41,138 nucleotides of DNA from Legionellaceae bacterium. Its GTDB lineage: Bacteria; Pseudomonadota; Gammaproteobacteria; UBA12402. A program made the translations under genes and the position numbers. The stretch covers positions 1 to 41,138 of the forward strand of contig PANR01000051.1 of assembly GCA_002707695.1 (NCBI GenBank), given 5' to 3'. The notes under the pieces are model-generated. The model was given only the letters and a program-made list of their open reading frames with translations, made no database searches and had not been told where the DNA came from. This document shows positions 3,034 through 5,010 of the stretch, piece after piece (the first letter of the stretch is position 1; every line of letters begins with the position of its first letter).

Positions 3034-5010
3034 ATGCATGTTATTAAAAGCATTATAGCTCGATCAAAAATAATTATCGGAGGCGGCCCTGTTGGCAGCG
3101 CGGCAGCAGTTGAGCTCTCGAAGCGATGTCGAGATGTTATGCTAGCGCATGATCCAAAAGATCTCGGTAGTCATAATGATGAAAGCCGGCTGGTTAGGTT
3201 GGCTGTGGAAGAAGATGTGGCGAGCTATCATCGATCACGAGCAGCAATTGATATGTTGTTAGATCGTAACCAGTTTTCTGAAACTTCATTTATGCTATCA
3301 AAGCCAGGCGTATTATTTGTAGCAAGCGAAGGTACGCCGCTTGCTCAAAAATTAAAAGCATCATCTTATCAAGACTTGCACCAACTATCAGAAGCTGAGT
3401 TGCAGGCGCTTTATCCAGAGTTTAAATTTAGCTTTCCGGATAATACGCTGTTTTGGGTTCATGAAGATGGCTATGTGGTGAATCCCGCTGAACTCTCTAA
3501 TACCAATCGTTTACTTGCCCAGCAGCGTGGATGTGAAATTGTTTCAGCAAATGCTGAAGTGATGATGAGGGATGCGAAGCTGTTGGTTGGTGTTGAGGGT
3601 GGATTGTATAGTGCGCCTGATATTTTTATGCTGACAGGCTCAAGAAACAAAGAAATATTGCAATCAAGTTTACCTGAATTATCAGGTGATTTATCTACGG
3701 TGAGTTTAACCGCAATCTCAACTAGGCGTTATTCATCAGGAGGTACTTCATATCCACTTATGCCCATTATGGTAGGTGAAATTAAGCATGACACCTATCC
3801 TCATATTTTTGATTTTTCGACCATGCCTGAGAGTACAAGTTTGGTGAAAACAAGGCTGAGTGGGTTTGGTGATTCAGAGGTGATTCCATGCGCTGATCAT
3901 CATATTGCTATGGATAATGATGGTATGAAAATGCTTTATGATGAATTTTTCCCGTCAATTTCACCTGCATTTCACACACCCATCGATTTTAATCGTTGCG
4001 TCACATATCGTAATTCAGCTCAACACAATCCTGTTGATTATTTTAATGTGAATTTAACGACGCAATCTAGACATGCCACAACACAGCGTATCTTTACAAC
4101 ATTAGGGTGCTTTGGTGTGCATGTGCGATACGGGCTGCTGATGGGAAAAAAGCTTGCGCGAACTAATCCCGGGGCAATGCGCAATATTATTGTGAGCTCA
4201 AAAGAATCTTCCAGTTTATCAGGGCAAGGTATTAAAGTCGGTGGCACTTCATTAAAGAAAATTCGCCCCCAGTTTTTTCTTAAAATGGAGGGTGAAAATC
4301 CTACCGGTAGTTTAATCGATCGATCCATATTTCATTTTTTTTCTAAATTAGTGAAAAAGGATGTTTTATCGGAGCGACCAACCTTGATTACTTACGGATC
4401 AGTTGAGTTGTTTGAGAGCATACAAAAAATAAAAGCGTTGTTGGCAAAAGATTATGATTTAGATTTTAATGTCATCGTTGTTGTACCGAAGGCTTGGGAG
4501 AGGCCCTATGGTGATCAACAAACCCCACCTGGGTTGAATTTGGGCGGTAGGCCAACTATTCCTGAAGTGGCACGTAAATTACGCAATGTTGGCGATGCTT
4601 GCTTATTTTACCCTGGTAGCATTGTCTGCAGTCAAAATTTTTCTAAATATTTGTCTCGAGAAAAGGGCTTGGTGCACTTTGATTTGGTTGATGCTGATAG
4701 TTTGCAATTTCTTGCTAAATCATTACGCGACGAGTTAAAAACGCAATTACCTGAGGTGACAGACGTTGTTCTCCCTGAGAGTGATTCAGCACTTGCTTTG
4801 CGAAATAATTTTAGTTTTTCATCTTCAACACCACGCATCCATTTTTTTGCGAAATCATTCCTTCCTTTGACAACGTCATACTATCAAAGTGTTTGTGATG
4901 GCCTTCGTCAATCGCCAGATGACATGGTTGAGCTGGAGGGGGCGGCATCAAAAATATTATCGAAAAATCCAAAGGCAATCATTGCTGGTGTTGCCAGTGG
5001 TAAACGATAA
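3034..5010 (+). CDS. FAD-dependent amine oxidase fused to a degenerate PLP-lyase domain
   Basis: A 658-residue fusion. Residues 1 to about 390 form a DAO/sarcosine-oxidase-like domain: dinucleotide motif IIIGGGPVGSAA, the DESRLVRLA segment typical of this family, HEDGYVVNP, and a C-terminal FAD loop LGCFGVHVRYG. A Cys in RCVTYRN lies near where monomeric sarcosine oxidase attaches FAD. Residues about 400-658 align throughout with the upstream PLP enzyme (GENPTGS, LPEVTDVVL, EGAASKIL), but the Schiff-base lysine is Ile428 and the phosphate loop is replaced by ESDSALAL. This domain probably cannot hold PLP in the normal way. A GGAGG site lies 10 bases before the ATG. The stop codon abuts the convergent luxR stop with no spacer. 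Likely roles are amine or amino-acid oxidation with a scaffold or allosteric domain pairing with the neighbour; this is inference. Confidence 0.85.
   Translation: MHVIKSIIARSKIIIGGGPVGSAAAVELSKRCRDVMLAHDPKDLGSHNDESRLVRLAVEEDVASYHRSRAAIDMLLDRNQFSETSFMLSKPGVLFVASEGTPLAQKLKASSYQDLHQLSEAELQALYPEFKFSFPDNTLFWVHEDGYVVNPAELSNTNRLLAQQRGCEIVSANAEVMMRDAKLLVGVEGGLYSAPDIFMLTGSRNKEILQSSLPELSGDLSTVSLTAISTRRYSSGGTSYPLMPIMVGEIKHDTYPHIFDFSTMPESTSLVKTRLSGFGDSEVIPCADHHIAMDNDGMKMLYDEFFPSISPAFHTPIDFNRCVTYRNSAQHNPVDYFNVNLTTQSRHATTQRIFTTLGCFGVHVRYGLLMGKKLARTNPGAMRNIIVSSKESSSLSGQGIKVGGTSLKKIRPQFFLKMEGENPTGSLIDRSIFHFFSKLVKKDVLSERPTLITYGSVELFESIQKIKALLAKDYDLDFNVIVVVPKAWERPYGDQQTPPGLNLGGRPTIPEVARKLRNVGDACLFYPGSIVCSQNFSKYLSREKGLVHFDLVDADSLQFLAKSLRDELKTQLPEVTDVVLPESDSALALRNNFSFSSSTPRIHFFAKSFLPLTTSYYQSVCDGLRQSPDDMVELEGAASKILSKNPKAIIAGVASGKR

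Follow-up and report, generated by a model that had tools for sequence, protein, structure and literature searches.

A PLP-fold domain without its cofactor elements, fused to a putative flavin oxidase in a Legionellaceae bacterium

Introduction

What purpose might a pyridoxal phosphate (PLP) enzyme domain serve once the residues that hold the cofactor have gone, and why would it be joined to a flavin oxidase in a gene that adjoins the one for an intact-looking enzyme of the same fold? The question is raised by an open reading frame (ORF) near one end of a 41,138-nucleotide stretch of Legionellaceae DNA (contig PANR01000051.1), referred to in full as the window. The contig belongs to a small assembly of 56 contigs that is 61.8% complete. 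Among kinases and proteases, pseudoenzymes are a familiar phenomenon, while to our knowledge few have been described for PLP enzymes. Here, we examine the homology, composition, predicted structure and surroundings of the domain, and we weigh the roles that it could have.

Results

Organization of the locus

The features around the fusion gene are the following.

1 to 747, reverse strand: LuxR-type regulator (autoinducer-binding and GerE domains, by Pfam), cut by the contig start
947 to 1723, forward strand: HAD-family phosphatase, intact-looking, with the four motifs DADGV, VVSKK, HKPDP and GDSLSADG (PF13419, E 2.1e-21)
1840 to 1869, no strand: inverted repeat CAGCATGC-N14-GCATGCTG, before the PLP-fusion gene pair and beside a promoter-like site at 1871-1899; candidate operator
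1954 to 3006, forward strand: fold-type-II PLP enzyme, intact-looking, in which Lys89 and the phosphate loop GTGATATG are present (PF00291, E 1.8e-25, 90.3 bits)
3034 to 4200, forward strand: FAD-dependent amine/amino-acid oxidase domain (DAO, SolA/MSOX-like), N-terminal part of the fusion (PF01266, N-methyl-L-tryptophan oxidase model, hhalign)
4201 to 5010, forward strand: pseudo-PLP domain (fold type II, PALP-like), C-terminal part of the fusion, residues 390-658 (BLASTP, hhalign, AlphaFold2 model)
5011 to 5871, reverse strand: another LuxR-type regulator, sharing 53% identity with that at 1-747 (Pfam, sequence comparison)
6094 to 6132, no strand: inverted repeat with the arms CCAGCATGCTTG and CAAGCATGCTGG, upstream of the LuxR gene 5011-5871 and 3' of acnA

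ORF 3034-5010 was found to be one uninterrupted frame of 658 amino acids, and ORF 1954-3006, of 350 amino acids, was likewise intact. Residues 1 to about 390 of the fusion protein form an FAD domain resembling sarcosine oxidase and SolA, which is followed by a divergent, cysteine-synthase-like fold-type-II PLP domain, hereafter the pseudo-domain. The fusion gene starts 27 bp past the stop codon of the PLP gene and is preceded by an AGGAGG site.

Homology of the pseudo-domain to the upstream enzyme

The original prediction had aligned the C-terminal domain with the upstream PLP enzyme along its length. In agreement with this, BLASTP matched residues 62-264 of the PLP enzyme to residues 401-603 of the fusion with 27% identity (59.3 bits, E 7e-14), while the best of 1000 shuffles of the domain's composition reached 25.8 bits and the reversed sequence 15.0. 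By hhalign, residues 13-63 of the pseudo-domain (51 aligned, near the domain start) matched a cysteine-synthase profile with 95% probability; the profile was built from 26 cysteine-synthase-like proteins, with the window proteins left out. Since the BLASTP score far exceeds the shuffles and a profile match was obtained as well, the resemblance is, at the level of sequence, one of homology, with chance ruled out.

The Pfam model PF00291 scored the C-terminal domain below threshold (18.2 bits against a gathering cut-off of 35). Other PALP proteins matched the pseudo-domain with at best 24.1 bits, against the 59.3 bits of its operon neighbour, a gap that is indicative as the scores come from different programs. 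In a tree of the PALP set, branching was poorly supported and the branches were very long, with about 10 changes per site on the end branch of the fusion. Direct duplication of the upstream gene is unproven because of this lack of resolution and the very long branches.

Loss of the PLP cofactor elements

Three sites of the pseudo-domain were located from the alignments, all on the forward strand.

4315 to 4317: codon ATC of Ile428, in the Schiff-base lysine column
4396 to 4413: GSVELF (residues 455-460), in the column of the TSGNT/TSGSYG substrate and O3' loop; lost
4780 to 4803: SDSALALR (residues 583-590), in the column of the glycine-rich phosphate loop GTGATATG; lost

Ile428 pairs with Lys89 of the upstream enzyme (AAA, 2218-2220). 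In an alignment made without the window proteins, this lysine was invariant (26 of 26 outside proteins), and when both window proteins were added, giving 28 proteins, it was missing from the fusion alone. The predicted replacement of the Schiff-base lysine by Ile428 thus held. For the two loops, the predicted loss was confirmed but the register had to be corrected: GTGATATG pairs with SDSALALR and not with ESDSALAL, a shift by one, and the partner of TSGSYG is GSVELF instead of TYGSVE, a shift by two. As both loop motifs are gone in either register, the conclusion that all three elements are lost is unchanged. About 20-25 residues past the phosphate-loop strand are also absent from the pseudo-domain. 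The structural motif NPTGSxxDR is retained, and the losses cluster at the cofactor sites. Judging from the alignments, the pseudo-domain has lost both means of binding PLP, the Schiff base and the glycine loop, and its assignment as a fold-type-II PLP pseudoenzyme domain is supported.

The fused or inactive appearance could in principle reflect an assembly or sequencing artefact or a chance resemblance, and the fragmentation of the assembly (56 contigs, 61.8% complete) speaks for such an explanation. However, the frame is continuous, two bases must change to turn Lys into Ile, both loops are altered as well, and the similarity lies far above the shuffles. We consider an artefact highly improbable.

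Predicted structure of the pseudo-domain

The AlphaFold2 model of the pseudo-domain had a pLDDT of 63.2 and a pTM of 0.63, with cores at about 70-87. Compared with solved structures, it gave Z-scores of 12.4-13.1 over about 205 residues (best 13.1 over 215), and all of the matches listed were PLP enzymes of fold type II, nearly all from the cysteine-synthase/CBS family. The input was a nine-sequence alignment that included PLP homologues, and the model therefore demonstrates compatibility with the PLP fold and not independent proof of it. At that strength, the prediction that the fold-level similarity persists is upheld, as the model resembles cysteine synthases (Z about 13) and suggests no different fold. 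The pseudo-domain has homology, predicted fold and the NPTGSxxDR motif in common with the cysteine synthase/CysM-CysK family (PF00291), but it differs from that family in its missing Schiff-base lysine, glycine phosphate loop and TSGNT loop and in its Pfam score (18.2 against 35).

Retention of the fold in the prediction would also suit a domain that is still catalytic, with a new chemistry independent of PLP. No conserved catalytic set is discernible without homologues, however, and such a function appears very remote.

Constraint or decay

The GC content of the pseudo-domain by codon position was 0.48, 0.40 and 0.32, a coding-type gradient like that of the neighbouring genes. Across the blocks FLKxEGENPTGSxxDR and QLPxVTDVVL, the two proteins share 22 residues, and at 12 of these the codons differ synonymously. 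Because the identical residues carry so many synonymous changes, the codons are suggestive of two blocks constrained over a long time rather than recently copied. Recent decay is unlikely, since the coding composition has been kept and the conserved blocks carry synonymous changes.

A related explanation is that the pseudo-domain is a decaying passenger: in a lineage with a small genome, the fused copy would be superfluous, without remaining function and on its way to being lost. It stays a rival because the branch of the pseudo-domain is long; its deletions and the fact that a single genome, with a small assembly, is known also point in this direction. On the other hand, the 658-amino-acid frame is intact with the codon-position GC of its neighbours, the two blocks combine 22 identical residues with 12 synonymous codon changes, and the losses fall mainly on the cofactor sites and spare the structural NPTGS..DR. 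Taken together, we regard ongoing decay as unlikely, though a rival to be reckoned with.

The attached flavin oxidase domain

The DAO model PF01266 matched the fusion with an E-value of 1.5e-12 (48.2 bits, cut-off 27.9), and the GxGxxG motif is present as GGGPVG at residue 16. The N-methyl-L-tryptophan oxidase model also matched (E 1.1e-15), its 57.5 bits being far below the equivalog cut-off of 257, and by hhalign residues 12-374 aligned with SolA/MSOX-like proteins at 98.6%. The domain retains Arg52 and Arg55, and the positively charged Arg365 occupies the column of the carboxylate-binding lysine of MSOX; we take these arginine and lysine columns to be active-site positions of MSOX. Cys322 lies near the column of the covalent-flavin cysteine, with which it is paired by hhalign but not by MAFFT. 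The N-terminal domain is thus of the same family as SolA/MSOX, with its FAD motif and two arginine residues, but it is about 20% identical to these proteins, falls far under the equivalog cut-offs and adds the C-terminal pseudo-PLP domain. The domain is likely to be an active flavoprotein oxidase that acts on an amino-acid-like amine. Matches to the pattern SGHGFKF among viral sequences yielded no usable DAO protein.

The upstream PLP enzyme

The PLP enzyme carries an N-terminal extension of about 55 amino acids. Its AlphaFold2 model had a pLDDT of 77 and a Z-score of 26 to CysK/CysM. Its scores stayed below the cut-offs of the CysK/CysM equivalogs (80.9 bits, cut-offs 344-413) and of the SbnA model TIGR03945 (58.8 bits, cut-off 349.95). 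In the loop at 2299-2316, TSGSYG replaces the usual TSGNTG, and the asparagine expected at the cofactor O3' is a serine. Because of this departure from TSGNTG, the upstream enzyme may have an unusual substrate too.

The N-termini of the PLP enzyme (1954-2060, MLLASRQLVQRTFTQLHKKLAFSARVAAKHSS) and of the HAD protein (947-1036, MRLFSQVSSQARRKVPRLFERGS) are cationic, amphipathic and poor in acidic residues, and look like mitochondrial presequences or membrane-binding helices.

Regulators and neighbouring genes

The two paralogous LuxR regulators bracket a set of three enzyme genes (HAD, PLP enzyme and fusion). Both autoinducer-binding and GerE domains are present, as in LuxR solos. A search of the assembly, which is 61.8% complete, turned up no LuxI. 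The presence of two autoinducer-binding regulators in the window without a LuxI among the assembled genes resembles LuxR solos; the literature checked on these, in contrast, does not mention FAD-dependent, pyridoxal or cysteine synthase enzymes.

The repeats at 1840-1869 and 6094-6132 have arms in common and gave folding z-scores of -3.9 and -4.5. Among perfect 8-mer dyads with loops of 4-30 nt, the shared-arm repeat alone occurs twice in the window. The frequency of promoter-like sites across the window was not above that of shuffles. From their sequence and position, the repeat at 6094-6132 could be an operator or a terminator stem, and that at 1840-1869 is a candidate operator.

The one relative found to carry acnA (68% identity) had different neighbour genes and no such gene set, and the set is therefore lineage-specific or acquired. 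Elsewhere in the window, 35018-36208 encodes what by eye is a patatin-like phospholipase (GGGVMG, GTSTGA) with an N-terminal hydrophobic segment, possibly a host-interaction protein.

Search for further fusions

Scans for the fusion, which favour close relatives, revealed no homologous fusion in 7 genomes of the order and 55 relatives; in 369 genomes of the class and 398 of the phylum, likewise without a homologous fusion, ordinary PALP or DAO proteins only were found. A motif-limited scan of 84,980 species gave no homologous fusion among the matches listed, none was present in plasmids, phages and viral contigs, and no DAO-PALP fusion was found in the literature. The fusion architecture is thus a single example, with no other found in the searches here. 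Four matches in relatives (L007-L010) were considered as kin of the fusion and rejected, as they score like ordinary cysteine synthases and L007 is one.

In Lactobacillus psittaci (L030, 7980-10084), a divergent cysteine-synthase-like gene overlaps another whose product carries an ATP-pyrophosphatase-like NGKDS motif. This pair adjoins an XRE-type regulator and constitutes a different small gene set.

Discussion

Having lost all that is required for holding vitamin B6, the pseudo-domain probably docks the two enzymes together or senses a ligand. Fold-type-II PLP enzymes normally dimerise, and for this reason the pseudo-domain could pair with the active protein encoded next door. The original prediction proposed a scaffold, an inhibitor or a heterodimer partner of the active copy, and each of these roles is hypothetical here. 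Tentatively, and at somewhat less than even chance, we favour a role in which the pseudo-domain, without catalysis of its own, would pair with the active PLP enzyme and tether the flavin oxidase to it, in a presumed heterodimer that would allow channelling.

The arrangement could work as follows. A domain sharing its lineage with the PLP enzyme encoded 27 bp upstream would have become fused to a SolA/sarcosine-oxidase-like oxidase, and the cofactor-free copy would take one of the two places in a dimer, the active PLP protein the other. Such a heterodimer would place the flavin oxidase beside the PLP active site and bring two sequential sites close together. The product of the PLP enzyme would be a beta-substituted amino acid, perhaps one that bears a secondary amine, and would serve as the substrate for oxidation by the flavin domain. 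In this way the two enzymes would be tethered into one module devoted to an unusual amino acid or a signal, under the control of the flanking LuxR regulators.

Such a partnership is favoured by the active homologue with its lysine and phosphate loop encoded next door, and by the flavin domain, in which GxGxxG, both arginines and, at the carboxylate site, a positively charged residue are kept. Counting against it are the extreme divergence of the pseudo-domain with part of its fold missing, the pLDDT of 63 of a model built from a PLP-containing alignment, the unusual TSGSYG loop of the upstream enzyme itself and the failure of the searches here to turn up a homologous fusion or a second genome that would show the architecture to be conserved.

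The sarcosine-oxidase-like family oxidises secondary amines, and in staphylococci SbnB oxidises the product of SbnA. A sarcosine-oxidase-like flavoprotein would therefore be a chemically reasonable stand-in for SbnB. SbnA makes N-(2-amino-2-carboxyethyl)-L-glutamate, a secondary-amine amino acid, by beta-substitution (PMC12414870). As a working analogy only, the SbnA-SbnB diaminopropionate module (PMC12414870) also has a fold-type-II beta-substitution enzyme beside an oxidising enzyme; it differs in that the SbnA model scores the enzyme here at 58.8 against 349.95 and that the oxidising partner here is a DAO-superfamily flavoprotein. The most specific version, an obligate heterodimer that channels a secondary-amine product to the flavin oxidase as a flavin-based SbnA/SbnB counterpart making the ligand of the flanking LuxR regulators, is a long shot.

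Precedents for non-catalytic relatives exist. In eudicots, a noncatalytic paralog of TSB (TSB-like) activates TSA (PMC12727527). Like the pseudo-domain as proposed, it is a fold-type-II PLP paralogue acting through an active partner, but TSB-like is a separate protein with two key residues changed that activates TSA (PMC12727527), whereas the pseudo-domain has lost three cofactor elements and is fused to a flavin oxidase. CYSL-1 of Caenorhabditis elegans is a CysK homologue that has lost its biosynthetic activity, serves protein binding, and binds a ligand and the EGL-9 tail; the tails of CysE and CdiA insert into the CysK cleft (PMC5562914). CYSL-1 is likened to the pseudo-domain here by description and not by sequence, and unlike it is not known as an oxidase fusion.

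The CysK-fold precedents of CYSL-1 with the EGL-9 tail and of the CysE/CdiA tails in the CysK cleft (PMC5562914), together with the fold retained in the prediction, would also suit a ligand-sensing pseudo-active site, in which the cleft is kept, an amino acid or a peptide tail is bound, and the oxidase or the PLP enzyme is regulated with no stable heterodimer formed. The TSGNT substrate loop has been lost too, however, and hence the usual carboxylate site is gone, which makes such sensing doubtful. An inhibitory subunit, whose mixed dimers with the upstream enzyme would poison or throttle PLP activity, would fit the homology to the active enzyme and the adjacent same-strand genes, but it leaves the fusion to an oxidase unexplained and seems improbable.

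If the pseudo-domain is indeed the non-catalytic partner of its neighbour, the locus would provide a compact case of a dead PLP enzyme that, tied to a flavin oxidase beside an active homologue, serves as a docking or allosteric module.
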